Origin: Polytrichum commune
Lineage: Eukaryota; Streptophyta; Polytrichopsida; Polytrichales; Polytrichaceae
Reading direction: 5' to 3'
Assembly (NCBI GenBank): GCA_950295325.1
Contig: OX485806.1
Coordinates: 9,114,001-9,178,000, forward strand
DNA length: 64,000 bases
Shown here: positions 5,031 to 64,000 of the stretch, piece by piece
Layout: each line of letters begins with the position of its first letter
How positions within the stretch are numbered: position 1 is the first letter of the stretch
The notes under the pieces: model-generated
Database searches by the model: none
Told to the model about the DNA's origin: nothing
What the model saw: the letters and a program-made list of their open reading frames with translations, nothing else
Translations under genes and position numbers: made by a program

Positions 5031-5046
5031 TCTATGTGTTGATGGC

Positions 5047-5625: not shown

Positions 5626-5753
5626 CCTTAAGGGTGCGCGTACCTTATTTGGTTCCTTCCCCACTTACGGCACTCGGATCTGAAGGAATGTTTAGTACTC
5701 ACAGCAAATATTTCCAAGCTATTCCAATGCTCGACCTCCTTGGTATCACATGA

Positions 5754-6995
5754 GGGCCACTTCACACATGGGACCGAGAGCCTGTGACCATTACACTTCA
5801 AGCACTCTCATTGGTGGAAAAAGGCGGAGCCGGTCCAAGTTCGCTACTTCACACTACGCTTGAGGGACCAACAGAGTATGTGAATGCAAGATGGATGTGA
5901 AGTCCACGTGGATTCCCACATGGCATCCAATGGATCATGTTCCATGGTCACTTGGACTATTTTCAAAAAACCACATCTTGGAGGTAGGCCTAACACAAAC
6001 CTGGGAGACCATGGCACTCCGAATGCTCATAATCATTTATATTTTTTATTTTATCATGCGTGAGGACCTGCATGAATAGGAATTCATTGAAATAGCATTT
6101 GGTTGAGGGCCCGGTCACATATGACTTCACACTACACTTGAGGGTCCATGTTTTTGGAGGTGTGTTGGGACCAGTGTTCAATATTTAAGTCTTCAACAAT
6201 TGTCAAATGCCATTTTTGCCATCAAAAAGGTTTTTTTTGGGGGGGGAGGTGCACTTCACAAAAATGTGCTCTGCAAAGTTTCCACCAATCTCAATGAAGG
6301 CCTCTCCAAAAAACCGCTTGTCACAAAATACAATGGCTGCAATTTTCAAATAAAAACATAGTTGGACTCCAATCTTGGCACTCTAGCACACACTTTTGAA
6401 TTCCCATACTCTTGCAATTTCGACTCTGCAACTTCAACTCAACATTGAGTGCAACTTCGGCTTGGCAAACACAACTATATGTGAACGTGGAATTTTCAAA
6501 TAGAATTGGATGAAGAGTAATCGCAAAAGTTGATTAAAACTTGAAGCATTGGATGCATTGATGCGAGTGTCATTATGTGGTCTTCTGACGGAAAATGTGC
6601 CTTGGGCTAGAATTTTGACACTTGGAAATCGACCAAAAACCAAAGGACTTTGCCTTTGGAGTTGGATGATGATTAAGTGCACTATGTAGGGAATCTAGAT
6701 AATTTTAGTCCATCATTTTAATGCATGTACTTCTTCATTATAGCGAGACATCATAGTATTTTCATATTCAATACAAATTGACCAATATCAAGTTTTTTTT
6801 TTTTTTTTGGTGAAGTGTTGGAAAAAAGTTTGAAAGTTTGAGTGAAGTGTGATTATTTTGAAGCCCTTCACATTGGAATGCATGTGCACACTTCAAACTT
6901 GAACACTTGTTGGGACGGCTTTACCTTTCAACACTTTCTTTTGGGCTCTCACAATTTCATGGTCACAGCTCTTGGCGCGTGTGTGAAAGCGGCCC
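5754..6995 (+). mobile_element. PIF/Harbinger-like non-autonomous TIR element, copy 1 (with nested insertion)
   Basis: The termini are inverted repeats starting GGGCCACTTCACAC on the left and, read inward from the right, GGGCCGCTTTCACAC. A second copy lies in opposite orientation at 47601-48099. Removing the nested hAT-like element and one 8-bp target duplication leaves 497 bp, against 499 bp for copy 2, which strongly supports both sets of boundaries. The flanking trinucleotides are TGA and TTA, compared with a perfect TAA pair around copy 2. There is no transposase frame, so it is a MITE-type element. Confidence 0.8.
6172..6908 (+). mobile_element. hAT-like non-autonomous element nested in the PIF-like element, copy 1
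   Basis: The 737-bp insert is bounded by a perfect 8-bp duplication GTTGGGAC (6164-6171 and 6909-6916). Its ends are CAGTGTTCAA and, inward from the right, AAGTGTTCAA. An 8-bp duplication and a YARNG-type terminus are typical of the hAT superfamily. The other PIF-like copy lacks this insert and shows the empty site. A second, inverted copy of the hAT-like element lies at 50332-51071. No transposase is encoded. Confidence 0.85.
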
Positions 6996-7330
6996 TTATT
7001 TGGTTCCTTCCCCACTCACGGCAGTCGGATCTGAAGGAACGTTTACCAGTCACACGGAATATCTCGAGGCTATTCCAATCCCGACCTCCTTTGTATCCTA
7101 TCACATGACAATGTTGCTGCATGCACTGTATTAATAGCAACATCTGCCAGCAATATATTCTACAAGGAATATGAATAACTTATTAGTCTATCCACAAGTC
7201 GTGCACGTGATACACACCGGACACCTGTCAAGCATCTTATTGTAGCCATAAAGGATTTAACGAACTTTGAAAAGTAAAGGCTTACTATATATATGTGTGC
7301 GCGGTAGGTGAAGTTATGAAGCCTCGGGAT

Positions 7331-13369: not shown

Positions 13370-13925
13370 TGATACCCTCCCCAATCTTATTACATAGAGT
13401 CTCTTAAAGCCGTGAAGTTCCACACATCTAGAGCCGTCATTTTCCAACGTGATGGGAAAAAGTCGTGAAGAATCGCACATGTAGCCATCCCATTTGGTGT
13501 GATGGAAAAAGTAAGTAAAAAGGGCGCGGATCCAAGTTCCTTGAAAAGGGCACTATTTGTACTCAAGTTTTTGTCTCCCAGTTATCGGCACTAAGTCAAC
13601 CTACACTGTGAATATGGGTTGGGAGAGAACCTTGCCTTTGAAAATTTATAGTATTTTCAAAACTTGGAAACAAATTGTGATTTTTTTTGGGTGGAATGTT
13701 GTGATATCAATTTCCACACCCCTAAAAAATCACCCAAGTATCATGATACCAGTCATATTCAACTGAGTCTATATGTCGGGTGGCGCCGGGAATAAGCCAA
13801 ATTCTACTCGGAATCATGCTCTGTTTATTCTCACAGCAGAGCACCGCACTAGTAGATTCAGGCCGAAAAAACTCGAATGAAGCAATCTATTGATATTATT
13901 AGAATGTAACGGGTGACAACAACTG
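13370..13925. repeat. Dispersed repeat blocks A and B, left copies
   Basis: Block A (about 13370-13765) matches 49880-50240, sharing GGGTTGGGAGAGAA, AAGTTCCTTGAAAAGG and TTTTTGTCTCC in order. Block B (about 13781-13925) matches about 48238-48390, sharing TTGATATTATTAGAATG. The order of A and B differs between the two loci, so they may be separate elements or parts of a rearranged LTR element. The Tigger-like element 13930-16196 is inserted in block B. Confidence 0.65.
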
Positions 13926-18418: not shown

Positions 18419-29932
<11,514 letters not shown>

Positions 29933-29939
29933 GGTAGTT

Positions 29940-31200
29940 GTTTGCATCACTGCATGAATTAGTGAGATTCTAAAGCATTAGATTTGGTGAGGTTCTTTGA
30001 AATAGGTGTCGGTTCTCTGACACCCCCATCATGAACTCACTGTAATGTATGTCAGTTGAAAGAGTATTTATGAAAACAACTAAGCACACAATTGTTGCTC
30101 TCTGTTGACATACAAATGCTGCTAGCTATGTTTTATATACGCAAATGAATTGCGCCCAGTGAATCTGCAGGAATACAGTTTGGTGGTATGCTGATGATTG
30201 TCAACCATTCTTTGTGGATGTCTAAAATACCTGACTTGAATCGCTATGTTTTTGTATAAATAATGCTTTTGGGATGGGTGCTGATGGTATATTTCAAAGT
30301 TTGTGATGATCGATGGCATATGTGGCTTTCTTTTCAGTAGATTTTGACCGAAAACCTAATCTATGTAGGAATAGTTTGTGCAAAAACGCAGACTTCATGT
30401 GGATCAAAAGTCCTCCTGTCAATAATTTAACACAGTTGTGTTCTAATAGGTAACACACAATCAATTTGCTGCATTTCTGTATGTGTCTAATACGCCACTC
30501 ACACATGAGGGCTTGCCAACATGGATTGAGGACCGACACGTAATTAATGTTCTAATTTCTTCTTGGTTTTAGCCAGTGGTCAATTGTTTTGGTCACCATC
30601 AAATTAGCTTATGGTATATGGAGCACAAGGGCACATTTCTGTGTGCCAACGAAGTTGACGAAAACCACTAGGTCAAGAAAAATAGAAATGATAGCAAGCA
30701 CGATTGTAGGCAATAGTTGAAGTTTGCAGAAGGGGCCTTGACTGCCTCTCTACTCCAAAATACGGATATTGACTTCCATTTGAAAGGAAAAATCTTGATG
30801 TTCACAAACATGTTGGTGTGGACAGGATGTGGACATGAAATTGTCAAGTTCTTCACTATTGCATATTCTTATTATTTAGACCTTGTCCAAAGGATTCATA
30901 TTTTTTGGATTTATTTTAACTTTTTTAGAATCTCAACATATGAAGTCCAACGAACACATCACGCATCATTTAAAATGGGTAAGAAGACAACCACATTCCA
31001 ATCTACTCTCTCATGTATTGACCCCCCAACATGGAAGTGCTTGGCCAACAAGCTACTTGAAGATACTGGCAATGGCCTCGTGGATGTTGGCAAGCTCTAT
31101 TTTCCTTTGCTACAATAGCGGGCACATGGAAGTTTGCCCTGAGCCATGATGAGTATGAAATGAGGTATGTTACTCTATGATTGCAGTGCTTTGTACATTT
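29940..31200. other. 3' flank of the receptor kinase and intergenic DNA
   Basis: No further gene is supported. The first few hundred bases probably include the 3' UTR of the receptor kinase; no unambiguous AATAAA signal was seen. Short frames near 30700-31150 show no recognisable domain. Confidence 0.4.
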
Positions 31201-31209
31201 TTAAAGTAC

Positions 31210-32055
31210 ACATTCACAACCTGACAAAGATTCACAACCAGACGGATTTATCAATATCTCACACACTTGAAGAAAATTGGTTTAAAGATGGACACTACCT
31301 TCATGACTACAAAAGTTAGTTGCACTTCCATGACAACAAGGGGGGAGTTTCTACAGTCTTCCAGCCAAACGACTTCATGGGTCCTAAGTAGCGTTCCCCA
31401 GACACTTCCTCGATGGGGATGGCTACTTTGAGCGCCTTGATCTCTTCATCAATCAACTTCACATTTAATGCACCCACGTTCAATTCCAAGTTGGCTGTCT
31501 TTGTAGTCCCTGGAATGGGAACTGTGAATGGAGACCCTTTGTGGATAACCCATGCCAATGCCAACTGATTGGTGGTGCATTTCAATGATCGGGGAAAACC
31601 AACAATTAGTTACAAATGAACCGGTTGAGTTTGAAAAATAACCGGTTGAAGTTCAAAACTACAAGAAAATTACTGATCATTTTAGAGGAATTTATAGAAT
31701 ATACCCTAATTTAATAAAGGAAAACTGGAGGATGTCAACAACATGTAACCGGTTGGACTTGCAAACATTAGGATCTCAACCGATTTTGCCCAAAAATCTC
31801 CCTGATCACCGGTGCATCACTTCTCCTCTGCAATTTTTGCAACACATGCCAATAATACCTTGTTCTTCTCATAGTTGTTGCCATGAAAAAATGGGATGGC
31901 GTTATGCAAGGAGTATATTCTCCCCCATTAGTTTATCACATGTGGCGGCCAACAGAAAAACAATGTCTCAGTTCACTGCAAGGACAGACTTCATAGTAAG
32001 TTATATCACAGCGTCAAGAATGTTCATCACGTTCCATGTGACAGTTTCCCATGTG
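31210..32055 (-). pseudogene. Partial duplicate of the aldo-keto reductase 3' end
   Basis: The minus strand of 31316-31574 encodes the last ~85 residues of an aldo-keto reductase, from [15 protein letters not shown] through VPIPGTTK to the stop, closely matching exon 5 of the gene at 35822-39687. Similarity continues into the 3' flank (to about 31210) and, beyond the exon 5 acceptor, into intron 4 (to about 32055). It is therefore a DNA-level copy, not a retrocopy. Exons 1-4 are absent. The exon is interrupted by a 228-bp MITE at 31583-31810. No product is expected. Confidence 0.85.
31583..31810 (+). mobile_element. MULE-like MITE inserted in the AKR pseudogene
   Basis: The insert is flanked by GGTGCATTT (31574-31582) and GGTGCATCA (31811-31819), a 9-bp duplication matching at 7 positions. 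The intact gene has the uninterrupted site GGTGCATTTCTTCTC at the same codon. The ends CAATGATCGGGGA and, inward, GGTGATCAGGGA are imperfect inverted repeats. Internal AACCGGTTGA words place it in the same family as 7331-7531. Confidence 0.8.
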
Positions 32056-32984: not shown

Positions 32985-33235
32985 CAGTAAATAATAAATA
33001 CTAGGCAATAAACAATAAACAATCTATAATAGACAATAGACAGTAAACAGTAAATAGTAGACAATAAACATTAAACAATAAATGATAGAAAATAAACTGT
33101 AAACAATAAATAGTAGACAATAGACAATAAAAAAAAAATGTTAGGCATTAAATAGTAAATAATAAACAGTAGACAATAGATGGTAAATAATACATAGTAG
33201 ACAATACATAGTCTATAATAGACAGTACATAATAG
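32985..33235. repeat. TAGACAATAAACAGTAAA-type low-complexity array, left arm
   Basis: About 250 bp consists of irregular repeats of AGACAATA, AACAGTAAA and AATAGTAGA. The complementary words (TTTACTGTTTA, TATTGTCTA) fill 34995-35345, so the two arrays lie in inverted orientation around a GC-rich core. The array is low in complexity, so base pairing between arms would be patchy. Confidence 0.75.
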
Positions 33236-34910: not shown

Positions 34911-34994
34911 TTCCCTTGAAAATTAGCAGCAAAAAAATACCCATAATTATAAATTACTGCCACAGTATAAATTTTCCTTTTCAAACCACGACAT

Positions 34995-35345
34995 TTATTG
35001 TATATTGTATATTATGTACTGTCTATTGTCTATTATTTCATGTCTACTATCTATTATTTATTGTTTACTGCTAGATATTTATTAATTATTGTGTATTGTC
35101 TATTATTTGTTGTAGACTTTTTATTGTCTACTATTTACCGTTGAATGTCTATTTATTTACTGTTTACTACCTAATATTTACTATTTAATGTCTATTATTT
35201 TCTATTTATTTATTTATTATTAAATTTTTACATGTAATATTACTATTTAGTGTCTGTAATTTATAATTATTTATTACTTACTATCTACTATTTTATTATA
35301 TACTATAAATCATCTATTATTTAAAATTTGTTGTCTATTATTTAT
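34995..35345. repeat. TATTGTCTATTATTT-type low-complexity array, right arm
   Basis: About 350 bp of irregular repeats of TATTGTCTA, TTTACTGTTTAC and CTATTATTTA, the inverse complement in type of 32985-33235. Confidence 0.75.
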
Positions 35346-35660
35346 TATTACCATTTTTATGTTTTTATGTTGGATGAATGAAAAACACACTTGTATGCGG
35401 TAATTGCCTCTCTCCCACCTTAGTAGTTAATGAGGAAGTTTATTCACACCTAAATCTAGATCTAAAAGATCTATAAAACTAATTAAGGATAGAAAATTCC
35501 TTCATGAAGCTTTTCCATGGCAATGAAGTGACACAACTCCCACACATGTAAGAAAAACTATGTGGAGCTCAAAACTTGAGCACGGACGTCAAAACTCCGA
35601 CACAAAAGTATTTTATGTCGTGGCCGTATATCAAAGTGACCCTCCTTCCTACTACTGTAG

Positions 35661-35720
35661 TGGAGTTTGACATGTCTGCAAAGCCTTAATGGGCTAATCA
35701 TCATCTTCAGAGTTTAGAAG
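35661..35720 (-). other. Motif shared by the 3' flanks of the AKR and PPR genes
   Basis: About 57 bp downstream of the AKR stop matches 45489-45545 downstream of the PPR stop at roughly three quarters of positions, including TGTCTGCAAAG, CTTAATGGG and TCATCTTCAGAG in the same spacing. Both lie 50-160 bp past a stop codon on the minus strand. Confidence 0.6.
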
Positions 35721-35821
35721 TATAGATTCGCAGTCTGAGAGATTCACAACGGGATAGAGTTTAACAATATCTCACATTTTAGAAGAAAATTGATTTGAAA
35801 TGGACACTAACTTAAGGAAAG

Positions 35822-38800
35822 TTAGTTGCCTTTCCATGAGGACAAAGGGGGAGTTTTTGCAATCTTCCAGCCCAAGGATAATTCGGGGGTTGCATAGCGT
35901 TCCCCAGACACTTCCTCAATAGGAATGGCTGCTTCGAGCGCCTTGATCTCTTCATCAGTGAGCTTCACATTTAATGCACACACGTTCGATTCCAAGTTGG
36001 CTATCTTTGTAGTCCCTGGAATGGGCACTGTGAACGGAGACCCTTTGTGGATAACCCATGCCAAAGCCAACTGGTTGGTGGTGCATTTCTTCTCTTCTGC
36101 AATTTTTGCAACACGTGCAAATAATACCTTGTTCTTCTCGTAGTTGTCGCCATCAAAAAATGGGACGGACATCTGCAAGGAGTGTACTCTCCCAAATTAA
36201 TTTATCACGCATGACAACGAGAGATACAACGTGGTAGTTCCATTGCGAGGAGATACTTCATAGTAAGTTATATCAGTGTCTGAAATTTTAATGCATTCCA
36301 TGTGACAGGTACCCATGTATGATGAATGTGTTGAAATAGAATATGTGGGCCTTATTCCATTTGAGCTCCAAAAGTAAATCCCATTAAATAGCAACAACGA
36401 ACGAGACAGGGTATGGAACCTTGGAATGAGGCTAGAAGATTTGGAATAGAAACTATTAAGTCCAGTGCACATTCCTTGGACAATCAAAGCCACTTAGATG
36501 AAATTGATGAATGAATTGGACAATGGAGTTTACTACACTGTATATGATTTGGAATGGCCCACTCCATTCATCAACAACCCACGTCATTGATCTTGTGAAA
36601 ATTGGATGGCAACCATGGAAGTTGGAATGGGACACTTGTTTCATGATAAGTTATGGAAACCACTTCAATCAACATGGCACATAGATTTTTAAGCCAATAC
36701 TTTTTAAATAAATTATGAAATAGCTTGATGTCTTTTCATTTTCCTTGTTTATTTTGCATGCCTCTGTATTTTCTTTCAAAGACAGTTATAATCTTCAAGG
36801 GTACTAGAGCTTACGTGACCATAATGAATGAGGGCAAGGTAAGACCCAAGGAATGTATGAGGTAAGATTATAAGAGGGAGGGAGATTTGCTTTGTTCATA
36901 TTATTCTATATGTAATCATTTTGCTAGTGACGTGTCATCTCTATAAAAGTTTCTTGCTGGACTATTGGAAGCAAAGGACATCAATAAAGAGAAAAGGTAG
37001 TCACCTTTCGGAAGTCATCATTGGTAAGCTCTTCCTTTTTGATGCCGGCAAAGAAACCTCGACCTAGTGGACTATATGGTACAATGCCGATACCCAGCTC
37101 CCTGCAACATCGACCAACACACAGAGATATCCAACGATCACTCCACATGATTGTCTCCAACAATCCAGAATATTAAGTTACATGCACAAATCAACAAAAG
37201 TATGTTCTCAAGCGAACTAGAAATTTGAGATCAAGAAACAAAAGACCCCCCAAACCACTATTGTAACCATCACATTATTAAACCTCGTGCTCCTTCAACC
37301 CCTTCTGAACAAAAGAGATGCCATTTCTCATGGGGACCTTGTTGCGGCACTAAGACTGAAGACGTTGTTTTTATATGACGATACAAAAAAAAAAAAATTT
37401 ATAATATTTTTGAAATAATAAATCCTCTTCCAAACAACAATGTGAACACAAATTCAAACTGGGTTGAGTAAATTGAGGATTGTTCATACATGCAAGTAGG
37501 AATGATGTCACTCTCTATGTCACGCACCCAAAGTGACCATTCAACTTGCACAGCAGTGATGGGATACACTGCATGAGCACGTCGAATCTCAGATGCCGAG
37601 GCTTCAGACAGTCCAAGATATTTCACCTTGCCTTCTTCCACCAATTTCTTCATCTCCCCTACCTGGTGGAGACAATTACCAAAAAGCATAACAATTTTTA
37701 GCACACAGGCATTAATTCCAAAGGTATGGCACATCTTAACTGAGAATCTGAAGAAATTTGCACAGGAAATCTAATATACAAGTAAGTAAGGCATGCGGCC
37801 CTTATTGTGGGCACTTCCAACTCCAAACACAATTTCAGCCGTCGGATGAGATTGCAAATTGTTTCATTCAGTTAGCAATGGCAAATGATGAAAATCATCA
37901 TTTCGCATTTTAGATTTGAAGTTGAGGATCAAAAATTATAAGATGTCAAAGTGAAGATTCTCCTTCTCGTTAACCTATCACGTAGGCCTTCCCATCTATG
38001 TTATCTATTGGACCTTGAAAAGTAAACCATTTAAGAGCCGTGTACCTTAGAGGAAGAGTAGCTCATCCATCCCTGGCGTTTCCACTAATCCCGAGCAATG
38101 GAAAAACAATATAGACACAGGATTGAGAAGAGAAATTCTTACAGTCACTTCGATGGGAGTCTTAGGGTCCAAGCGGTGCTGGTAATACAAGTCGATGCAA
38201 TCAATCCCTAATCTCTGCAGGCTGGCTTCGCACGCCTCGCGCACATGCTCCGGGTCTCCACGCACCGAAAAATTGCCGTTCTCGTCTTGGTAAAACGAAA
38301 ACTTGGTCGCAATCTGCACCTTGTCTCGGATATCCTTAAATGCCTGCACCACATGTAACAATATCCTCCGCGAGCTATAAAAATAAATTCAAGAGCATTC
38401 ACTCGATCGATGCACACTTGCCACAGCCATACCGACGTAACAACAAAATATGATCACACAAAATTTGTCTACCTTCACATTACATGTCCTCGTTACTACG
38501 ATGTATCAAATGCACACAAAAAAAAATCACTCCCTCGACATTTTAAAAACACTGACTCCATATACTTACAGAAATCAGTGCCCTTGCATCTTCTACTTCT
38601 ACTTCTACTCTGCCCGAAGGCTAAATTAACATTGCACCAGTAAATTACAGATTCTTAAGCAAGATTGAACCACCCGGATCAACATACGGGGATAAAAAAA
38701 TATGCATACTACCGTTTCCGGTTCTGTGTGCACAAATTGTCTTCCTAAACATTAGATTCCTTCGTGTATCAGTAGTACCAAATCCTTAGAAGCTGTTACT

Positions 38801-39687
38801 GCCATCACCAACGACCAGTATAAACTCCTCCTTACTATGATGCCTTACATTTAGAAACAAACTCTCTCCCTAGACATTGGGATACTTACAAATTTTCAGT
38901 GGCTCTGCATCTTCTACTTCTACTCTACCCGACGACAAGAAAACATTGCACCAGTAACCTGCAAATTTTTAAGCAAGACTAAACCACCCGGATCAGAACA
39001 CGAGGACTACCGTTCCCAGCTCTGACTAGAAAATTTATCTACCTACACATAAGATTTCCTCTTGTATCATATGTCTCAAATCCTTAGAAGCTGCTACTGG
39101 CATCCACAATCAACGACCACAGGAAATCTCTTTTTGGACATTGAAGTAACAGAGAAGGGGGCATTTAAAAAACAATGATATGGTACACTAACAGAACTCA
39201 GAGTCCTTGCATCTCCTACTTCTACTGTGCCCGAAGACACAATTAACATTGTACCAGTGAACTACAGAAAATTTCTTTAACAACATTGATCCTTACATAT
39301 CAAAACACGGGGATATAACATACGCGTACTACCATGTCTATTTCTGTCTGCACAAATTTCTCTACCAACACATTAATTTTTCCTAGAACATCAAATGTAC
39401 TAAAAACTGAGAAGCTGCTACTGGCATCAACAATCAGCAACCACATCTCAATTTGAACACCACCAGCACCCGACCTTTCCGAGCAACACTTCGTTAGTGA
39501 AGGGCCCGTAGGCATTAGAAGAGTCGAAGAACGTGACACCGAGCTCCACTGCCCTGTGAAGGACTTTAATCATGTCCTCGTCCTTCGCGGCGGGGCCGTA
39601 GCCGAATGACATTCCCATGCATCCCGGCCCGATCGCAGAAACCTCCAGGCCCTGCGATCCAAGCTTCACTCGGGGGACGGTCGCCAT
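35822..39687 (-). CDS. Aldo-keto reductase (AKR), auxin-induced-protein / perakine-reductase type, 5 exons
   Basis: Exons on the minus strand are 39687-39475, 38343-38143, 37662-37490, 37101-37005 and 36172-35822; all introns are GT-AG with matching phases, giving 344 aa, the normal length for the family. It is an NADPH-dependent aldehyde/ketone reductase of the soluble TIM-barrel type. The catalytic tetrad is visible: Asp55 and Tyr60 (FFDSSNAYG), Lys85 (ATKF) and His127 (YYQH). Family motifs [15 protein letters not shown] and VPIPGTTK are intact. The closest plant group is that of IN2-2, PCNT115 and perakine reductase; the substrate cannot be told from sequence. No transit peptide is seen, so a cytosolic location is likely. 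A partial copy lies at 31210-32055. Exon 3 ends AT|GT, giving Met where the family usually has Arg. Confidence 0.92.
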
Positions 39688-45596: not shown

Positions 45597-47449
45597 TCAC
45601 TTGTTGGATGCTTCCCAATCTGCCTGCATCTGCTGTGCCTTGTCAAACTTCCCAATTCTTTTGTAGGTATCAATCAGAATAGTGTACGTAATATTGTCAG
45701 GTGCACAGCCTGCAAGCTTCATCTCCTCGAAGACATTCTCCATATCCTCAAACATTCTAGCCTTTTGATAGGCATCAATAGCAGCATTGTAAACAGCCGT
45801 GTCAATGGTTACATTAGGGTTCCTACATTGCCGCATAATTTTGTCAATTTTGTGCCAGTATCCTTGGTTTGCATATGCACTCAAAAGAGACGAAAACGTA
45901 ATGCAACTTGGTCTTACGCCCTCAGCTTTCATCTGATTAAATGCAACCTCCATTTGGTCTATGTTCCCTGCCTTGCCATACACCTCAATTATTGAATTGT
46001 ATGTGGCCGTGTTCATCTCATAATTATATCTACGCATGTAATCAAGGACGCAGTGCATTTTTCCATAGAATCCATTCTTCCCGTAGGCAGCGACAAGGGA
46101 ATTCAGAGTAACAATGTCTGGCAGTAGACCTTGCTGTAGCAGACTCTCATATGCTTGCTCCATATCTTGAATTCGATTATGAAGTCCAAAGATTCGAATC
46201 AAAGAATTCCACGTCCACGTATCTGGTTCCACGTTTCTTGCATCCATTAGAGTCAGAACATTCTCCATCTCATCAAACAACCCTTGCTTACCGTAAGCAA
46301 AAATCAAGGTATTGTAGGTGACAACATTTGGCTCTGCTCCCTCCCACCACATCTCATTGAGCAATTGGGCCGCCCGATCGTAAAGCCCCCCGTCACAACA
46401 GCCCTTGATCATCGCAGTGTAGGCGTAGACATCAGGTGCACATCCTTCAAACTTTGGCATGCTCTTGAAAAGGTTCAGGGCCTTGTCAAGTAGGTTGCTT
46501 TTTGTGTAGATATTCAGAAGAGCTGTGAAGATTGCAGTTGTTGGACGCACTTTGTCTTCTAGCATATTGTCAAAAAGCTTAGCTGCCTCTTCAGGTTTCT
46601 TGCAGTTCCCTAGCATCGTCAAGAGTTTGATATATGTTCGCACATCCGGATGATACCACTCTTGTAGTCTCACAAGTTCAAACACCTGGTGTACTTCATA
46701 CACCATCAAAATTGGATGCTGAACGTGAATTCCTCAATGCTATGCAACATAGTAGAACCCTAATCAACACAAACATGAAGGACCCGGATGATACTACTCT
46801 TGTTACCTCACAAGCTCAAACACTCATCATGTTTCTTACACCAGAAAAATTGGGAACTGAATGTGACTTCCTCAATTCTATGCCAACACAGTAAAACCCC
46901 TAATTGACACAAACACTAAGAATGGCCCGGCTGATACTACTCCTATAAACCTCACAAGCTCAAACGCCTATCCTACTTCATACACTATCAAAATTGGACG
47001 CTGAATGTGAATTCCTCAATCCTATGCAACACGGTGAAAATCCTCAATTAAGAAAGAAAAGCTAATGAACGCAAAACAAGGTAAGAAGTCGGGGAACGAG
47101 ACCAACACACCCTGATAGCAGACTCCCAGTGGTTCTGTTTGATGCGCTCGTCGAGCGACTCCAGCAACGCACGAGGATACAGCTTCGTGGAAGTCTTGGT
47201 CAACGCTCGCATCTCGGACTCCTGCTGCGCTCGCTCGATTCTCTGCACCACAGACACGGCTGTCCTGGCCGCGCGCCTCTTGTTGCCGCTCTCTTGGAAG
47301 ATGGAATTGGAGGGATTCGCATTTTGTTCGCTCGCACAAACCACTGGGCAACGTCCGCTCCTTGTCCTCGTCCCCGTTATTCTTGTTCCCGTTGTTCTTG
47401 TTGCTGTGTCCGTCGTATTCCAAGGCCATGGCGCAGCGAGGGCGGCCAT
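45597..47449 (-). CDS. P-class pentatricopeptide repeat (PPR) protein, 2 exons
   Basis: Exon 1 is 47449-47111 (ATG at 47449) and exon 2 is 46685-45597; the intron is GT-AG, phase 0, giving 475 aa. The N-terminus is Ala/Thr/Arg-rich and may be an organelle transit peptide. RALLESLDERIKQNHWESAI and FELVRLQEWYHPDVRTYIKL span the junction and are continuous with known plant PPR proteins. About ten 35-residue PPR motifs follow, such as PNVVTYNTLIFAYGKQGLFD and EMNTATYNSIIEVYGKAGN. No E, DYW or SMR domain is present, so it is P-class, expected to bind organelle RNA and affect its stability, splicing or translation. It most resembles the At5g48730/At3g53170 group from memory of the family; orthology is not proven. 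The 425-bp intron is almost wholly a tandem array (46643-47045). Confidence 0.9.
46643..47045 (-). repeat. Tandem triplication of the PPR exon 2 acceptor junction
   Basis: Three units of about 140 bp start at 46643, 46783 and 46926. Each has, in plus orientation, a CCGG.TGATAC word, then CACAAG.TCAAAC, AAATTGG..GCTGAA and TTCCTCAAT. The first unit overlaps the real start of exon 2 (46643-46685) and its acceptor; the other two repeat that exon edge within the intron. Their exon-like parts carry stops or lost residues (unit 2: FELVR followed by a stop codon), so they look like decayed exon copies. Confidence 0.85.
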
Positions 47450-47600
47450 GGCGAGCGACGGAGGAGGTTGGGTTAGAACTGAGCGGCCATCTAGTTATCA
47501 AGCCAGGCTCCCATATTAAGGTAGATGGGTCTTAAATGGTTACTCTCCCCAACTGTGCCAAGTGTCACAACTCTATTTGTCTTGTTCGACACTACACTAA

Positions 47601-48099
47601 GGGCCACTTCACACAAGAGCCAAGAGCCGTGACCATGAAACCGTGAGAGCCCAAAAGAAAGTGACCAAAGGCCGTCCCAACACACCTCCAAAATCATGTA
47701 GTGTGATCATGGACCCTCAAGTGTAGTGCGAAGTCATATATGACCGGGTCCTCAACCAAATGCTATTTCAATGAATTTCTATTCATGCAGGACCTCACAC
47801 ATGATAAAATAGAATAAATCAACGGTTGTGAGTGTTCGGAGTGCCATGGTTTCCCGGTTTTGTGTTAGGCCTACATCCAAGAGGCGATTTTTGAAAATAA
47901 TCCAAGTGACCATGAAACATGATCCACTCGATGCCATGTAGGAATCCATGTAGACTTTACATCCATCTTGCATTTACATGCTCCGATGGTCCCTCAAGCG
48001 TAGTGTGAAGCGAACTTGGGCGAGCTCCGCCTTTTCCACCAATGAGAGTGCTTGAAGTGTAATGGTCATGGGCTCTCAATCTCATATGTGAAGTGGCCC
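47601..48099 (-). mobile_element. PIF/Harbinger-like MITE, copy 2, upstream of the PPR gene
   Basis: The 499-bp element has ends GGGCCACTTCACACAAGAGC and, inward from the right, GGGCCACTTCACATATGAG. It is flanked by a perfect TAA duplication (47598-47600 and 48100-48102), the target of PIF/Harbinger elements. It matches 5754-6995 in inverse orientation and lacks the hAT-like insert. It lies about 150 bp upstream of the PPR start codon, so it may affect that promoter. A TA-flanked MITE end (TAAGGTAGATGGGTCTTAAA) lies at about 47517, closer still to the gene. Confidence 0.85.
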
Positions 48100-48102
48100 T
48101 AA

Positions 48103-48730
48103 GGGTAGGTTCACACCTATGGGTAAGTCCTAATTGTGATTGCTAAATTTACCAATCTTAATGGTAAAATAATCTAACCTCAAGTTAACCTAAATGTCAT
48201 CTCATTCATAACATTATTTAGCTAAGTTTGTACATTGGGTGGGGTCAGGAATAAACAAGATTCTATTTGGGATTATACTTTGTTTATTCTTACAACAAAG
48301 CATTGTACTAGCAAATTCAAGTTGAAAAACTCGAGTGAAGTAGTGTATTGATATTATTAGAATGAACACAGCTGATAGCGGTTGAATATTGTTATGTTCA
48401 CACCTACATGCAACTTCACCAAAAAGTCACCTATCTAGAGTAGGTTATTACTTCCATTCACAAATGACGATCATTAAACTCACCTTGCTTGCCATGTGTC
48501 ATCATGTCACATGTCATGCGATCACTAGTAAGTCACTAGTCACTACCATTGTCTTTTAATTTAGCGAACCATTCTAGTACACATGTGGTAAGTTACCACC
48601 AAGGTTAGGCGCTAATTTTGTTGTTAGGTGACTTTATGTATGAAGTAAAGTTAACAATGGACCAAGTGTGCATGTAGTTAAAAGAATCACGATGTTAAGA
48701 AAGAAAATACTCATGGGTGTGAACCATGCC
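48103..48730. mobile_element. Second TAA-flanked TIR element, abutting the first
   Basis: The ends are GGGTAGGTTCACACC and, inward from the right, GGCATGGTTCACACC, flanked by TAA (48100-48102 and 48731-48733). The left TAA is shared with the neighbouring PIF-like MITE. Repeat block B (about 48238-48390) lies inside it. No coding frame is present. The assignment to PIF-like elements rests on the TAA and terminal style only. Confidence 0.55.
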
Positions 48731-48739
48731 TAAATATTG

Positions 48740-50330
48740 TATTTAAAGTGTTTTATGTCATTGTGGTGACTTTTCTAATGACACTTCTTATGAATAAGTT
48801 TACAAATACTATCATCCCAACTTACTTTTAGATCATCCACTTTTGGTATATTTTGCATCCTAACATTTTTGTGATGAAATAATGTCATGAATGATTGAAA
48901 CTTGGATTGAAAATCACTTTTGTAAGTGGCAATAATTGTAACATTGTAATCTATGAAGACTTATTTTTTACCAAGGAATGACAAATACTGTCGGGTTTAC
49001 ATTTAATGTTGGTGACACTACATGGGCCGTTTACACCTACATGCTCTCAATAATGTTATGTCTATAAAATGATGATGTGCTAAGAGTCTGCCACTTGGCA
49101 AAGAATCTTCATATACCCTTCCAATTTTTTTACATGTTTTTTACTACAATTTCTTAGTCTTGGGGTGGGGTGCATATTCTACACATTACATGACATGATC
49201 CCAACATCATAAAAGAAAAAGAAAAGAAAAAAGAACGCTTGTATATAAATATCGGCATGAATGTGAGCATGTTGGCCTTACATTTATCATAGTGTTATGT
49301 GATGCAATGTAAGGTGTTATGCCTCTTTCCTAGCATCTCATATATATATTCATTTCATTCAAGAAGTTTGGATCAATTGGAGAGTTTGAATGCGTGGTCA
49401 TGTATACTACACTTGGTTCAATGTCACTTCCAACCAAGTTTTTCATATTATTAAACCCAAATTGCTCCTTTCTTTCATTGAGTTGTGTGTGTATTTTGTG
49501 TATTATATGTAATTATTGTGCAAGGTTTTAGAGTGTTGTTATTGGAGTGTTGTTTTTACTGCATGAGTGGTTCTCAATGTCTTGATCCTTGGAATGCTTT
49601 CGCGCGTTGTTTAGAGCGGAGAAGGTGTCGGGCACTAGGGCTAGAGAGGGATTGAAATAGCTAGGGTGGCGTTAGGACTTGTTCTTATGAAGATAACAAA
49701 ATCAACTTCATGGAAACTCACCCTTTACTTCTGCCTTATTTGAATCCCATGGTTCAAAATTCAATTTAATTGGACTTGACCCTAAAACCGCCATAGGTGC
49801 AAGACTTATGTAAGGTTCACGGAGGATTTTCTTTATGCAAGATTTATGGTAGACGTACTTATTTCCAATTACACATTGCCCCCCATCCCAATCTTAATAC
49901 AAAAAGTCCTCTAAAGCCATGAACTTTCACGTACCTATCACTTTCTAATGTGATGGGAAATAGCCATGAAGTTTCATACACGTCACTGTCACATTTGGTG
50001 TAATGGAAAATAGTAAGTTAAAAGTTCCTTGAAAAGGCCCTAGTTGTACTCAATGTTTTTGTCTCCTAATTTTCAAAAAATGGGTCGACCTATGATGTGA
50101 GTATGGGTTGGGAGAGAATGTTGCTTTTGGAAATTTACAATAAGCTCAAAACTTGGAAATAAATTAAGATTTTTTTTTATTGATCACTGTGATATCATTT
50201 CCAAACCTGTGAAAATTCACTCCAGCATCATACTTGTACTCCACTTATGCAAATCTCCTCACAACTACAAAATGGGTCTGTCTACCTTATGTACTTTGTA
50301 TGCAAGATTTCAGGTTGTTGGTATTGGGTG
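48740..50330. repeat. Intergenic DNA with dispersed repeat block A, right copy
   Basis: About 49880-50240 matches block A at 13370-13765, with GGGTTGGGAGAGAATGTTGC and TTTTTGTCTCCTAATTTTC. About 48740-49870 is AT-rich with nothing recognised. Confidence 0.5.
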
Positions 50331-50331
50331 G

Positions 50332-51071
50332 CAATGTTCAAGTTTGAAGTGTGCACATGCATTTCAATGTGAAGGGCTTCAAAATAATCACTTCACTCAA
50401 ACTTTCAAACTTTTTTGTAACACTTCCAAAAAAACAACTTGATATTGGTTGTCTTGTATTGAATATGAAAATAATATGATATCTCACTATATTGAAGAAG
50501 TACATACAATAAAATAATGCACTAAAATTACTTAGATTAAGTATAAAATGCACTTTTATCATCATCCAACTCCAAAGGCAAAGCCCTCCAATTTTTGGTC
50601 GACTCCAAGTGTCAAAAATTCTAGCCCAATCCATATTGTACATCAAGCAACCACATAATGACGCTCGCATCAATGCATCCAATGTTTCAAGTTTCAATCG
50701 AATTCTGCAATCACTCTTCACCCAATTATGCTTGAAATCCATGTTCATATATAGCTGTGCTTGCGAAGTCAAAGTTGCAATCAACGTCAAGTCGAAGTTG
50801 TAGAGTCAAAATTGCAAGAGTTCTTGGAATTTGGAAGTGTCTACTAGAGTGCCAAGATTCGAGTCTAGGCAAGTTTGTAGTTGCAAATTGAAGCCAATGT
50901 ATTTTGTGACAGGCAATTTTCGGAGAGGCCTTCACTGTAAAGGGTGGAAACTTTGCAGAGCACATTTTTGTGAAGTGCAAAATAAAATATTTTTTATTTT
51001 CTTAAAAAAATTCTTTTTTGATAGCCAAAATGGCATTTGACAGGTGTTGAAGACTTCAATATTGAACACTG
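50332..51071 (-). mobile_element. hAT-like non-autonomous element, copy 2
   Basis: The 740-bp element has ends CAATGTTCAA and, inward from the right, CAGTGTTCAA, flanked by TTGGGTGG (50324-50331) and TTGGGTGT (51072-51079), an 8-bp duplication with one mismatch. It is inverted relative to the nested copy at 6172-6908 and of nearly equal length (740 against 737 bp). No transposase frame is present. Confidence 0.85.
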
Positions 51072-51079
51072 TTGGGTGT

Positions 51080-52458
51080 CTTGGTTTTAGTGCAGGATTT
51101 TTGGGCAAAAGCATGGGCAATTTTTGGCAAGTGCCAGAATGGTTTTGGGAGCCATTTCAGAGGGGAGAAAGCTAGGGAGGGACTTATGTAGATAGAGTTG
51201 GGTTACACACATGTGTTCTTCAAATTTTGTATGTAAGTGAATCCTTCCTGAGCCTGTGGGGCAAAGGAGGGGATCCATGTCCATTTCATTCAAAACAAAT
51301 ACTTGTACAAGAGGTGTCCATGTTCATAAACTAAAGTTCCTCAATACATCAACTAAATATTATCAGATATAGATATAATGTGTGGCCTTCAGATGGAAAG
51401 ATTGTCACTTCGTCTACTTAGATTGACACAAATGACATTGAAACATTAGAATTTGGAGCAATCCAGCTGGGAACATATCTAGAATTGATTTGAGGATAAT
51501 GCTTCACAACATCAAATAGCTACAAGCTGGATGGGGATCATATCTGAGTTTGATGGAAACTGTGCTTTCCTATTATCACAAAGACAGGATAATTGTTCGC
51601 CACAATCAATAGAACCAAGAAAATACAGAACATGGATACGCTGTTATTTCGTCCAAAGCCCCAGAGTAAGGTACGTATGCCCAAAACCAACATTAGTCGT
51701 AAAACCAACACTATGTACCACAGTGATACAATTGAAGCCTTCACTGATGTACAATGTTGGTACATATTCTCGGGTTGGGATTTTGTATTGGTTTTGCATA
51801 TGCCTAGCTTAGAAGTTCTGACCATGGACATAACAAGCAAACCTAAAGCTCCTACTACACAGGAAAGCAATATCCATGAGCACAAATAAAAATGGATCAC
51901 CTCAAGTAAAGAATCATGTTCTCATGGACATTTGCCAGATCTGAATCCAGATACTGCTTCTACTAAGGTACACCTGAACAAGTGTCAGCAAGCATATTCT
52001 TAGTACCAATTTGCATAATTCTACAGAAAAAGAAATCCTCTCCAATAAACTGGGCTTTGTAGTCTCACTGATGGAGCTCTTCAAAAGCAGGCACCACATC
52101 CTCTCTCAAAGACTCATGATCAATATCTCCCAGGGTCTTCATCTCTTTTGAAGACTGACATAAATTTGATGAAATGTTACAGAAAGTGCATGTAAACAAT
52201 AGGTACCTCTCTGGTAGATGCCTTGCAGTAGTTTAGGTGAACCCTAAACAAATCCGCAATCTGTACACAGGTCAATGACACATGTGAAAAGTGGTCCAAT
52301 CTTCAGAGAATCAGTGGAGTTGATAAACACAGCTTCACAAAAAGTTCACCTTGCCATATACGTGAAAACCATGTCATTTGTCAACCATTCCTGTAAGATT
52401 AACCTAGGCAGCCATTGTATCCACATATGCGTCACCACTTATACTCAGGTTGATGCCA
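51080..52458. other. 3' flank of the RBM42-like gene, nothing else recognised
   Basis: The frames in this stretch overlap on both strands and lack coding signatures. It probably includes the 3' UTR of the minus-strand gene ending at 52459; no clear AATAAA was fixed. Confidence 0.4.
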
Positions 52459-55400
52459 CTAGTTGTGCAAAATGGTTCTCTTGGTCTTCTGCCGCTTGTT
52501 ATGCTGCACGACATCACCAATAATCAAATACAGAACGTACCATGCATGATAGGCAAACTGTTTACTTTAGACAAAGCATGTGAATAATAGAGAAGAGGGC
52601 TGTGGCTAGACCGAAGCAACTTGTAGCTCACTTCACTCAAGAAAAATGGGGAGCCTCAGAACAGCTTACTGTTAGTCTGAAGGAACCACAGCATATATGA
52701 CCCCCACTATGACTGGATGCCTAGGTAACTAGCTTTACAGTGTTCTCAACTTTAGTTTGGTAAGCTCTCAGAGGTGCACTACACTGATGATATATTGATT
52801 ATTTTTCCCTAGTAGTCAATTTGCCAACACTCACAACCAAAATACAAAATTCTTCTGTATCTGATCATGAATATCTACATAGATATCTCCTCATCTACAA
52901 AACACAAGATGATAATATATACTTTATTGGTACTGACCCAGCTGCTTAAGATTCTAAAAAGTTGGAATTCACAAAAGAAACAGGTGCTCAAAGTACAAAA
53001 TCAGGATCTTGCAAAGTCTACCTTCTGATGTGTTAGTGCCTCTTGATCCGTCCTTTCCTTCCAAGTACTCTTTCGTAGCTTAATTGGCCTATTACCGACA
53101 TATTTGCCTGTGCAGATGAAGGATACAGTAGTCAGGCATCTGCATACTCAAAGATCAAAGACACACATAACGAATTCCAAGAATATGAAGAGCCTTGTCA
53201 ATATCTAACATTTTCCATGCAATTTAGGACAAACAAAGCAGCGCAGAGAATCTTTGATAAACCATCAAAAGTCATGTTAAATATAAGCCTACTGAACGAC
53301 TTTCTATGTCCTCTAGTGGTACACATACATGTACAACCCACAAAGTTCTCAAAAACAATCCCATGAACCATGTCTCTCTTCCTGAATAGCATTAGAGATT
53401 TGAAGTTGGTCCATGGCTGTCACATACCATTCATCTCTTTCAATGCCAAAGCCAAATCAGAGGGATTTGCAAAACTGACAAACCCAAATCCCTTGGTCTT
53501 CCCAGTGCGCTTATCTCGAACAACCTACATTAGAGCAACAACCACCCCCTGTATCAGACCACCTTAGTTACACAGATCTACTTGGTACTGCAAGTAACAG
53601 ATTTGTCAATTAGGCAAAAGATACTCACTCGAGCCATGTTGAAAGTGGCGAAGCGTGTAAATGCCTTGGTCAAAACCTCATCATTCACTTCATTTCCCAA
53701 GTCACCACAGAAAAGGCGGTGGTCATCTGCATCCAGAGTGTAAAATACAGAAATTAAATCAATTACTGCTATCCAATATCTCACTTCAGATTTGCATTAG
53801 TGGTAAAGAACACTGTGACAGCTATTATAGGCTAATATCATGAACTGCAATGAGAGGGCACTTTCTACAGTCTGATGTGATAAAGTTAACACCAAAAAGT
53901 TTCTGAAAGACTTCACTAACGCTCCACACCCGTATATGACAAATTCATAGTATATTGAAGAGTGGCAATCAATGAACTCCGTAACAGAGAACAAAAGTAA
54001 TCTCTATCTAAACAAATCTATGAATCTCTAGACTACATATACCAGAACTTAGAACCATCACAATCACAACAATGAATAACAACAAACATGCACTGCCTAG
54101 ATTGAAGGATTTTGCACACACTTTCAGGCCATTCAGCAAGAGTAGGATCCTCCCAAGTTTGTCCAGCAGCTTTTCGAGGAATCGCTTTCTTCTTTGATTC
54201 CACTTTGTGTTCTCCATCTCCACTAGCCAAGGCAGCCTTCACGCTCTCTAAAGCCTCTGGTGTGATGGTTTGTGCATCTCTTTGAAAAAGCTGTTGTGCC
54301 TGCGATGGTGAAAAAACACCCCTCAGCAAGACAAAGTAATCAAAGATGGCCAATGGAACATGGTTGACTCAAAAGAAACAAATCCAAAAAATTAAGAATA
54401 AAAAAAAGAAAAAAATAGGAATTACTCTTGAGTCATACATGAATCGTTAGCACCCATCTAAATACCATGGAAAAAGGCTTATCAAGCCAGTGAAAGCTGC
54501 AGAAATGGCCAATTGAAGCCAATTACAAATAGTATGTTATGTTTTAAGAAAGAGCTATGTGACAGAAGGGTACCCTCCTAGTGCTGATTATCTTGTGCAT
54601 TTCAACAGCCACTGCAAGTACCTCATGCAAGCTCCAGAATTTTAGGTGTTGAGAGATACCATATGAGCACCTTTTTCTCCCCTCCAATTATATTCCACTC
54701 TCCTCACTTTGTAAATATTCTCAATTAATTCTCTCTCTTCTGAGATGTGATTATATGCAGTGAGTTTCTTCTAGATCTGGACCTCAAATAAAAAGAAAGG
54801 AACAAAAATTGTCGAGTCATAAAATGGATTATCAGTTCAACCATCCTTTGTTTCAAATCCTAACACTTCAACCAAACCATGAGCTAAGCTAGAAGGCAGA
54901 GTCTAAAACCTTATGTCCTTTGAACAAAGTAATATGTGTGGACAAAACAATTCACAAAATGACATTAAGAAGCCCTAAGCATTTAACTCGCGAAGAAATT
55001 GACCTATTGAACTTCAACATATGACCAAGAAAAATTGGAACCCTCTGAGTTTTTGTTTGCGTTTTAAAAATCTTCAACCACCAAGATAGAGTGGAGCCCT
55101 GAGCACTAGAACTCTTGATACTCCTTCAAGATATCCTTCAAAAAGTAAACCAATGAGAAGGTTAGAGAGCACACCTGGTGTTGTTGAGGCAGAGCATAAA
55201 CTGTTGCATCGGCCGATGTTGTAGCTGTAGTGGTGGCAGATTGCTGGTACACAGTTGGATATTGATAGGTAGGAGGTTGAGCTGCTTGCATGTGACTTGG
55301 TGTTGCAGGATACGACACTTGTGGGGCCTGACTATACTGTTGTGGAGGTGCTTGATACTGTTGCTGATGTTGCTGGAGATGGAAAGGGACTGGGAAATAA

Positions 55401-57585
55401 GAATTTGCTGAAGCAGCAGCAGGAGGAGGAGGGGGTGGGGCATAATTCGGTGTTGAAGAAGGTGCAGGGTATGAGTATTGTGCTCCAGAAGTGGTAGGAG
55501 GAGGAGGAGGTAAAGGGGATCGAGAGGGAGCCCCTGTCTGTGTGGCTGATGCAGCAGGACTGCTCAACCAAGGTGAATGAGTACTGGCTTCTTGTTGAGG
55601 AGAAGGAAGAGAAACAGGAGATACAGGGGGAGGGGGAGGAGGCAGCCTGGAATTTTGTAAGGTTGAATGCAAAGGTGCAGATCCATTCGTAGCAGTCCCA
55701 ACCGTCTGCACAAGAGATACCAATTAGATGCATTTGCAACTCTTGACACCCATATGATAGCATCCAAGATGAATCATGCTTCCAAGAATGCATACAAACT
55801 GCCTAAGAACTGGCTTAAAGAATCCATCAAAATCGTTCAAGTTATGCAAGGCAGCAAAACAAAGCCTATTAAACAACTTCACAGTTACCTTATCCTCTAC
55901 AACATAAGTTGGTCATCTCTAAGCACTACACCTTTGCAATTTGAATGGCAGTGAAGATTCCAATTCATTACCCACTGCTCAAGGTTTATGAAACCCTATG
56001 GCAGTCCAAAAGGATACCTAATTCCAGTAACTGCTCTAAGTTCCTCTTCAAGCAAGAAAGAATTCAAATGTTGATCCTCCTCGATACTGCCTCCCTCCAC
56101 CAGAAAGCAAAGAAAAGGACCAATCCTATCTAACAACTACACGTGCCTCTAAAAGTTTAAACCCTAAGACTAAACTTATCTCCTCACGTCTTAATTTCAG
56201 CTAGTTAGAGTATTCCAAACTCTCCATCACCTATATAATCGTTGGACGTAGCTGAACGGTCCAGGTCCACCTAAGATCGCCAGACAAAGCTCAACAACTT
56301 GGACAAAGAACTCTTTCTGAGGTAATGTTTCCAATTGAAGGGTCGTTTACACTACAAAGGTGGTTGTGATTGTGGTTAACCACAATAATCAACCACAACT
56401 ATGGTCTTCTTCGAAATCTTGTAAGTGTGGGTGATGGTGAGGTTGGTCTTCCAAATTGCAATCTATAATTGGTTTAGGTCTTGGCCTCGAAAAGAAATTT
56501 AAGTGATTAATATTCTCGTTGGCCTTGACTTGTAATGTTGAATTGGTTACCTCCTCAACTTCCTTTCCCGAACCTTAGTGGTGCCAAATGAGTAAGTACA
56601 ACCGCCCTAAGATGGTTAACCATGGTGAGTAGTGGGATTGATGGGATAGAGTGTGGTTGTGCTTAGCATTTATTATGCCTTTTCCATCCAAATACAATGG
56701 AAGAAAGTAAACCACGAAACACAAGCAGAACCAGAACCACCCCTAGTGTAAACGACCCTTGAGTGAATACAAAGTCTGACCCCAATTCGGGCCTGCCCAG
56801 TCAACACGCAAGGGTCCAGATAAACGCTCTACTGGAGCTAGGCAAGTGAGAAAAGTACACGGCAGGAAAAAAGAAAAGGGAGAGCGACGGGATGACTTCA
56901 AACCTGCGGAGGCAAAAATGTGCTCGACTCTAATTCTCTAATTTCTAGTGATGCCCGTTTGGTGTTACATTTAGACCAACTCGAAGATGAAGCAACATCG
57001 GAGTCATCATCATCTCCCTGCTCTCTCTAGAATTATACAAAGCCTCAAAAAAGAGGGAGAGTGACAGTAGGTCTTCAAACCTGCCGAAGAAAAAATATGC
57101 TCGGCTCTATTTCTCGTGATGCATGTTTGGGAATTACATATAACACCATAATTCATGTGGGTGGCAACATCGGAGTCATCATCTCTCTCTTCACTCTAGA
57201 ATTATATAAAGCCAAAAACAAAAGGGAGAATGACAGTAGGAGTGCAAACCTGCGGAGGCAAAAATGTGCTCGGTGGAGGTGGTGGAGGAGGTAAGACAGT
57301 AGAGGAATTCGCGACAAGAGTTGGTGGAGCACCAACCCCATAAAGTCCTCCTACAGTTGGTGGAGGTGGAGGCACCCCCGGTGGCCCTCGTAGACCCCCA
57401 GGGGGTGGTGGCGGTGGAGGTCGAGCCTGAGGAAGATGGCCTCCGCCTCCTCTTCCAATGAGGAGTCCAGGGGGCGGGGGCGGTGGAGGAGGCAGCAACA
57501 CTTGTTGTTGATGCGGAGGAGCCTCTGATCCCAGATCCTTCATCTCCTGCTCGAACCTCTCGAGCTCACTTAATAAATTCGCCAT
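52459..57585 (-). CDS. RBM42: RBM42-like RNA-binding protein, 7 exons
   Basis: Exons on the minus strand are 57585-57250, 55705-55175, 54299-54122, 53726-53629, 53524-53428, 53107-53022 and 52503-52459; phases match at every GT-AG junction, giving 456 aa. Exons 1-2 encode a long Pro-, Gln- and Ala-rich disordered region with several polyproline runs. Exon 3 encodes AQQLFQRDAQTITPEALESV and the conserved AAGQTWEDPTLAEWPE stretch typical of RBM42. Exons 4-6 form one RRM, with RNP2 (LFCGDL, 353-358) and RNP1 (KGFGFVSF, 392-399). Exon 7 encodes a short basic tail HNKRQKTKRTILHN. The family binds RNA and is linked to pre-mRNA splicing; a nuclear role is inferred. Intron 1 contains a tandem array copying the exon 1 donor and a TIR element. 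Confidence 0.92.
56339..56759 (-). mobile_element. PIF-like MITE in intron 1 of the RBM42-like gene
   Basis: The 421-bp element has near-perfect inverted ends AGGGTCGTTTACACTA on both sides, extending with GGTGGTT. TGA trinucleotides flank it (56336-56338 and 56760-56762). Inside, TTGTGGTTAACCACAA is a perfect palindrome. A 3-bp duplication and GGG-type ends suggest a PIF/Harbinger-like MITE, though the usual target is TWA. Confidence 0.75.
56879..57275 (-). repeat. Tandem triplication of the RBM42 exon 1 donor junction
   Basis: Units begin at about 56879, 57055 and 57227, each with GGGAGA.YGAC followed by CAAACCTGC. Read on the minus strand, each carries an exon-like end with CAG followed by GTTTG: the real donor at 57250/57249, and copies at 57081/57080 and 56904/56903. 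The copy at 56904 is identical to the exon end for the last 20 bases. Spacing is 169 and 177 bp. Homology in the first unit stops about 25 bases into exon 1. Confidence 0.85.
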
Positions 57586-62879: not shown

Positions 62880-64000
62880 GAGAATAGTTAAGAATAGGTT
62901 TGTCAAGAATTTTGTTGGTCACGACATCAAGGCATGTGAACGCATTGATTTTTGGTGATTGACCCAGGGTTGATCCTCAACCATTAGCCCTTAGCCTCAA
63001 TGAGTTCCATTGCAACTGAATTGATGAGTTGGTTGTATCTTGAGCGATAAATATGATGAGTTTCATTACATTTTGAACTTCCCATATGCGCCTATGTCAA
63101 GATGCATAGACTATCTAGTCATTTCTTTGGACCCAACATTATCTCCAACCATTTCATATTGGCCTTAGAACATAGTTGCTCATACCTTAAGACATGCTAT
63201 GAGCATCTAACTAAGCAAAAAATGATTGATTTGTGAGATTACAATTTTGCCAATTTCATGGCATGGCCTTCTTGTGTTTACACACTTTTGTCTAACTAGC
63301 AATGCCAATTACAAAGTGATTGTATGACCATACTGGAACATTTTTTAAACATATTAAATTTTGACTTGAATTAACTATCAAATGTGTGTGCTTACATGTG
63401 TGATTGTCTAGCATAGACTACAAAGTCCACACCGTGATTCAACTTCTCATGGGACTTAGAATTACTAAGGTTGATTATTCTACAAGATCCACTTACACCA
63501 ATGCTTAAGCAAAGACCATTCTAAAATAGTAGAATGAAATCCGTAGAAAATAGCGATGCCATCAAACATATGGCGCGAGTCAAATAATATGCATTGTTGA
63601 AGTATCCATTAAAGAAATGGCTCATTATGTATCTCAAGTTGTGTTTATGGTTTTAGTTAAAGTCCTAGACAACATTTTAAATCAAATTTTCATTAGAAGA
63701 AAGCTTCAACTATGAAATATTTCTCATCCACATGAATTTCACAGAGACTATTGAAGATCGTATCACCTAGGAGTATGATACATGAAACTCACATCATGTT
63801 GTTGCTTATTTTGCTATGTGTTCTCTCCTTGCGTGGTTCAAGTAAGCGTTCAACTCAACTCAAATTTATTTTAGAAAGAAAATACGTGCTCACAAGCTAG
63901 TGAAGAGGCAAAAAGAAACACAAAAACAAACTTTTTACACTTCACCATTCAAATTTATTCTAGAAAGGAAATATGTGCTCACAAGCTAGAAGAGGCAAAA
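62880..64000. other. Intergenic DNA at the window end
   Basis: AT-rich and without a credible gene. A 40-bp direct repeat near the end (TTTATT.TAGAAAG.AAATA and GTGCTCACAAGCTAG) occurs at about 63867-63905 and 63954-63990. Confidence 0.45.

Follow-up and report, generated by a model that had tools for sequence, protein, structure and literature searches.

Introduction

Tandem duplication across a splice junction has been described in a plant gene. In potato, the RdRp gene PGSC0003DMG402000361 carries a tandem duplication that crosses an intron-exon boundary and produced a new, transcript-supported intron, together with another tandem duplication of 83 bp within the first intron (PMC4974935). 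A review tabulates 188 unambiguous intron gains by tandem genomic duplication in several species, including Arabidopsis and rice (PMC3443670). A third source describes small tandem duplications as the commonest type of short insertion in the human genome, ties them to break repair and cites plant data as well (PMC8355091). Here we analyze two short tandem arrays from Polytrichum commune that each cross an exon-intron junction, one at the acceptor of a PPR gene and one at the first donor of an RBM42-like gene. Both lie in a 64-kb stretch of the forward strand (GCA_950295325.1, contig OX485806.1:9,114,001-9,178,000; hereafter the window) of an assembly of 407.8 Mb.

An earlier note on this DNA had read the two junctions as the mark of a genome-wide process that copies exon edges into introns. 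Such a process, if true, would be a new driver of intron evolution. A literature search turned up no survey of exon-edge arrays across a genome, which does not prove that none exists. We find that both arrays are real and that short arrays of this kind are common in the genome. In the samples examined there is no enrichment of arrays at exon edges, and the two fall there about as chance predicts.

Results

Two tandem arrays cross exon-intron junctions

Arrays in the window were detected with Tandem Repeats Finder (TRF) and self-blastn. In the PPR gene, TRF reports an array at 46646-47044 with a period of 138, 2.8 copies and 77% matches, and self-blastn lengthens it to 47049 (78% over 269 columns and 84% over 105 columns). 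The exonic share of this array is 40 bp at the start of exon 2 (46646-46685), within the first unit, and the intronic share of the unit in this exon-bearing copy is 98 bp. Of the intronic copies, unit 2 has stops in its exon-like part and unit 3 a frameshift. An alternative AG at 46718, 33 bp upstream, would also keep the frame and scores -1.08 versus 0.80 for the acceptor of the model; the chosen join between exons 1 and 2 rests partly on what we take plant homologues to look like. The donor of this intron, at 47110, has no nearby copy, and its score of 20 in the junction scan described below is among the low scores. By arithmetic, the intron measures ~144 bp once the extra units are subtracted.

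The second array lies at the first donor of the RBM42-like gene. At a score of 50 TRF leaves it unreported, while self-blastn picks up both this and the PPR array. The self-alignments pair 56870-57104 with 57047-57273 at 76% and 56868-56926 with 57214-57272 at 86%. The array is composed of two full 177-bp units and a 60-bp partial unit that contains the exon edge of the model, and the intronic share of the unit in the exon-bearing copy is ~153 bp. The three donor copies, at 57249, 57080 and 56903, have simple splice-site scores of 3.96, 3.84 and 3.84, and the frame of exon 1, if continued beyond the first donor, runs into a stop at ~57204. Subtraction of the extra units leaves ~1.2 kb of intron 1.

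The gene identities proposed in the earlier note hold. The PPR gene has a Pfam PPR_2 match of 1.7e-72. The RBM42-like model (57585-52068) joins seven exons into 471 amino acids without a stop; its protein has a Pfam RRM_1 match of 1.6e-17 and a best PDB match to 6qw6, named RNA-binding protein 42 (E 1.8e-38), a chain which we take to be human and spliceosomal. The note had further described both junctions as triplicated; the arrays stand, with 2.9 copies in the PPR gene and a count corrected to 2.3 in the RBM42-like gene. Inclusion of exon sequence is likewise upheld, with the proposed 25-45 bp corrected to 40 bp (PPR) and 24 bp (RBM42). Its observations that the unit sizes are similar (periods of 138 and 177) and that the two array sequences are unrelated were both correct.

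Both junction-crossing tandem arrays are real, confirming the observation. In each, the copies lie head to tail and contain an exon part, or a decayed copy of it, together with a part of the adjacent intron. Unit-to-unit identity in the two arrays is 76-86% by self-blastn, and this divergence of 14-24% between units makes an assembly artefact unlikely. Because the real window contains 15 local repeat pairs, counting its low-complexity stretch, and each of ten dinucleotide shuffles contains 0, neither array is a chance similarity. Dispersed intron-making elements (introners) would place one unit in many unrelated introns; blastn (E 0.01) matched neither the PPR nor the RBM42 array to anything else within the window. 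A search of the genome DNA with 46600-47100, in which very common words are skipped, returned one match, the query itself.

Arrays in the window cover junctions about as often as chance predicts

With the low-complexity region at 33.0-35.4 kb left out, self-blastn identifies nine local direct-repeat arrays in the window (Table 1). Four genes were modelled (PPR, RBM42-like, aldo/keto reductase and LRR receptor kinase), giving 57 junctions. Six LRR exons of the kinase gene are exactly 72 nt each in the model, which supports the gene models. An array was counted as covering a junction when at least 15 bp lay on each side of it. Two of the nine arrays do so, versus 1.68 expected under random placement over the window (P(≥2) = 0.52), and reruns under five array-definition settings gave P values of 0.46-0.55; one RBM42 donor was set at 54087 in the placement test and in the junction scan, and at 54121 in the five-setting rerun. 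Five arrays lie in modelled genes, and two of these cover a junction versus 3.3 expected within genes, an expectation that drops to 2.5 when each array is allowed at most one junction. The array in the aldo/keto reductase gene (Pfam Aldo_ket_red 1.6e-56 over four joined exons) ends ~29 bp short of the donor (39474) and does not include the exon.

We also scanned the 50 bp around each junction against the 600 bp on either side. At a score of at least 40, 2 of 57 junctions are recovered versus 37 of 1500 random window positions (1.41 per 57). At a score of at least 60, a single junction remains (1 of 57), the RBM42 donor, versus 4 of 1500 window positions (0.15 per 57).

Short tandem arrays are common elsewhere in the genome

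For the genomic background we took 20 stretches of 10 kb (200 kb), comprising genes and spacers, at 1-Mb marks on contigs 1-4. These contain 34 arrays, and the same measure gives 10 in the 64-kb window, one of which is in the low-complexity stretch. The sample is dense in short tandem arrays (period 60-700), which cover 14,998 of its 200,000 bases; one shuffled set of the sampled stretches yielded 0 arrays. The median period is 139, 23 of the 34 arrays have a period of 100-350, and 9 of the 34 have 2.3-3.5 copies, where copy number is array length divided by shortest period. The PPR and RBM42 arrays match arrays elsewhere in the genome in both unit length and copy number. Thus, the unit sizes and copy numbers of both are common in this genome. 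Additionally, 216 of 3000 positions in the 20 stretches reach a junction-scan score of at least 40 (4.1 per 57) and 147 of 3000 reach at least 60 (2.8 per 57). The genome-wide process proposed in the earlier note therefore survives as regards common short arrays of like sizes and copy numbers (34 in 200 kb), and its tie to exon edges finds no support in these samples (2 of 9 in the window versus 1.68 expected).

No junction-covering array was seen in a sample of kinesin genes

A second sample was drawn from one gene family. A search for kinesins gave at least 147 exon-wise matches, from which 40 gene stretches were taken (92,256 bp), in two sets of 20. Introns were counted where profile positions on both sides were contiguous, giving 59 (36 from the first set and 23 from the second). 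Four arrays are present, at L030 1-266, L037 1672-1793, L053 1309-1725 and L054 6-287. None of the four was seen to span a junction by 15 bp on the exon side, versus 1.24 expected from array length and junction density. Of 118 kinesin junction proxies, none scores at least 40 and one scores at least 30. By reading of the sequence, the L030 and L054 arrays end ~30-36 bp before an acceptor; they are near an exon partly by construction, because they lie in 300-bp flanks chosen next to exons. The L053 intron, which is mostly repeat array and has three copies of the donor-like TTCAAG/GTGCT or close variants, is not counted in the 59, its flanking profile positions being non-contiguous. A single chaperonin gene stretch (L062, 4.2 kb) contains no array.

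Other features of the window

Several further features were noted in the window. The last-exon region of the reductase gene is duplicated (31200-32054 and 35713-36318, 79-83%); one copy is in pieces and is probably a pseudogene fragment. Two AT-rich heptamer-like arrays of TAAACAA type (32985-33235 and 34993-35349) lie inverted around ~1.8 kb and resemble the long inverted ends of a mobile element. Between the PPR and RBM42-like genes, 47598-51071 is 81-86% similar, in inverted pieces, to 5753-6998, with further pieces at 13380-13906; this suggests a mobile element present in two copies, of which the first has an internal deletion. Direct repeats of 105 bp (5643-5747 and 6994-7097) lie on either side of the copy at 5753-6998. 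Open frames on the minus strand at 1603-4054, one with an RNase H match of 1.7e-07, look like retroelement remains. Searches of the window against Rfam (gathering threshold) and for tRNAs gave no matches.

Table 1. Coordinates of the two junction-crossing arrays, their genes and the remaining arrays of the window.
Feature	Position	Strand	Details and basis
PPR exon 1	47111..47449	-	Ends ...WESAIR, donor AGG/GTGTGT; start is the first ATG of the frame; in-frame join to exon 2
PPR intron	46686..47110	-	425 bp, ~86% tandem array; frame and simple splice-site scoring
PPR acceptor array	46646..47049	-	Period 138, 2.9 copies; TRF and self-blastn
PPR array units	46646-46783, 46784-46926, 46927-47049	-	
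PPR exon 2	45600..46685	-	Starts VFELVRLQEW; Pfam PPR_2 1.7e-72 for open frame 45600-46733
RBM42-like exon 1	57250..57585	-	Last 24 bp (57250-57273) within the array
RBM42 donor array	56868..57273	-	Period 177, 2.3 copies; self-blastn
RBM42 intron 1	55706..57249	-	1544 bp
RBM42 exons 2-7 with introns	52068..55705	-	Spliced gene model, RRM domain
Array in LRR receptor kinase intron	19996..20274	+	Two copies
Array in another intron of the same LRR receptor kinase gene	26588..26924	+	Two copies
Array in aldo/keto reductase intron 1	38539..39445	-	Nearly three units, offsets 320 and 623
All nine window arrays	247-447, 4835-5026, 5033-5623, 19996-20274, 26588-26924, 38539-39445, 46646-47049, 56868-57273, 63860-64000		

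Discussion

We conclude, with a probability of roughly 0.87, that both arrays are old products of ordinary small-scale tandem duplication, a common event in this genome, that was tolerated at a splice junction. What had been a striking coincidence in one window dissolves against the genome's own background. In the mechanism we propose, a segment of ~140-180 bp lying by chance across an exon-intron junction would have been duplicated head to tail, and a further full or partial copy would then have been added. The literature suggests that the copying step may have been break repair or slippage, followed by unequal exchange for the extra copy; small tandem duplications are reportedly also the subject of rice work by Vaughn and Bennetzen (2014). 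The exon-adjacent copy, which is the upstream-most for a donor and the downstream-most for an acceptor, would keep the original splice site, and for this reason the duplication would be tolerated. We infer that these exon-proximal sites are the ones used. The protein would thus be unchanged, while the remaining copies would turn into intron and decay. Because introns of ~144 bp and ~1.2 kb remain without the extra units, both introns look lengthened rather than newly gained.

Several observations weigh against this conclusion. The 1500 window positions used as background include the PPR and RBM42 arrays themselves; without the two arrays, 25 of 1500 positions score at least 40 and 1 of 1500 at least 60. 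At the stricter cutoff the RBM42 donor thus exceeds the rest of the window, though not the other stretches. The junctions of the four genes are predicted from sequence models, and some of their positions are approximate, such as the last reductase acceptor and some kinase edges. The genome sample is small and non-random, being taken at 1-Mb marks on four contigs, and the kinesin junctions are profile-match edges. The L030 and L054 arrays extend as far as the edges at which their stretches were cut, so that their far ends are unseen. Contact with a junction also recurs in the kinesin sample, where, by reading of the sequence, the L053 array begins ~8 bp inside the upstream exon, past the donor. 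Lastly, 23 of 23 positions in the farthest RBM42 copy agree with the exon end, while the intron part of that copy matches at 28 of 36. Under decay of one lineage alone, we estimate that such identity may arise with a chance of ~5%.

This identity bears on a reading in which the repeated sites were kept by selection for alternative splicing, so that spare donors or a cassette exon would regulate the RBM42 transcript. The three donor copies score nearly alike, and the third, with its fully preserved exon-like part, closes an open stretch of 41 codons (57026-56904, minus strand) that is preceded by an AG and followed by a donor, ends STFLPPQ like exon 1 and, by hand assignment, is in the same phase as exon 1. 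The second copy is in a different phase, also by hand, and donors 2 or 3 used straight from exon 1 would lead to a stop. Additionally, open stretches of 41 codons are not unusual within a given frame, and the cassette exon is a prediction from sequence. The 23/23 identity was set aside as a sign of selection, since its chance is ~5% if only the intronic copy mutates; decay on both sides would suggest 0.3% by our arithmetic. We therefore regard selection for alternative splicing as improbable. A more specific form, in which the donors would be kept as a regulated splice switch of an autoregulatory intron, the inner donors adding a stop and the third copy serving as an in-frame 41-codon cassette exon, appears from sequence to be still harder to credit; the RBM42 protein is presumably a member of the spliceosome.

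The view of the earlier note, that introns of this species receive copies of junction segments through an exon-edge-specific process, draws on the occurrence of two cases in neighbouring genes and on the L053 array with its ~8 bp of exon. It would lead one to look for an excess at junctions, and there is none in the window or in the 40 kinesin stretches. Unit sizes and copy numbers are alike elsewhere in the genome and in the exon-free intron array at 38539-39445. We consider such a process very unlikely. Least probable of all is an origin of the introns themselves from tandemly duplicated exonic sequence (the AGGT model), a mechanism of intron gain for which Gao and Lynch (2009) and Hellsten (2011) are reportedly cited. 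In its favour, the PPR intron is ~86% array, with exon-like sequence in the units. That model calls for an exonic unit that supplies both ends of the new intron, and here the unit is mostly intronic, with 98 bp (PPR) and ~153 bp (RBM42) of intron in the exon-bearing copy. An intron remains once the extra units are removed, and the PPR donor at 47110 (score 20) has no nearby copy.

Ordinary tandem duplication tolerated at a junction can be set beside the described systems. Like the duplications linked to break repair in people and plants, the arrays reported here are small direct duplications; unlike the class of less than 100 bp described there, their units are longer (PMC8355091). The copies are now 76-86% alike, so breakpoints and mechanism are no longer readable in that comparison. 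The density of arrays in the sampled stretches may itself merit comparison with other plants. As in intron gain by tandem duplication, splice sites have been copied by local duplication (PMC3443670). In the intron-gain model, copying of an exonic AGGT segment provides both ends of a new intron, whereas the present units consist mostly of intron and no gain of an intron is apparent (PMC3443670). The potato RdRp gene is similar in that a tandem duplication crosses a junction of a plant gene, and potato also has a short duplication in intron 1 (PMC4974935). The outcome differs, since potato gained a new intron and here the copies, at 2.3-2.9 per array, seem only to lengthen an existing one (PMC4974935). 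The PPR and RBM42-like genes thus add two clear cases of junction-crossing tandem duplication in which introns have seemingly been lengthened with the coding frame intact.

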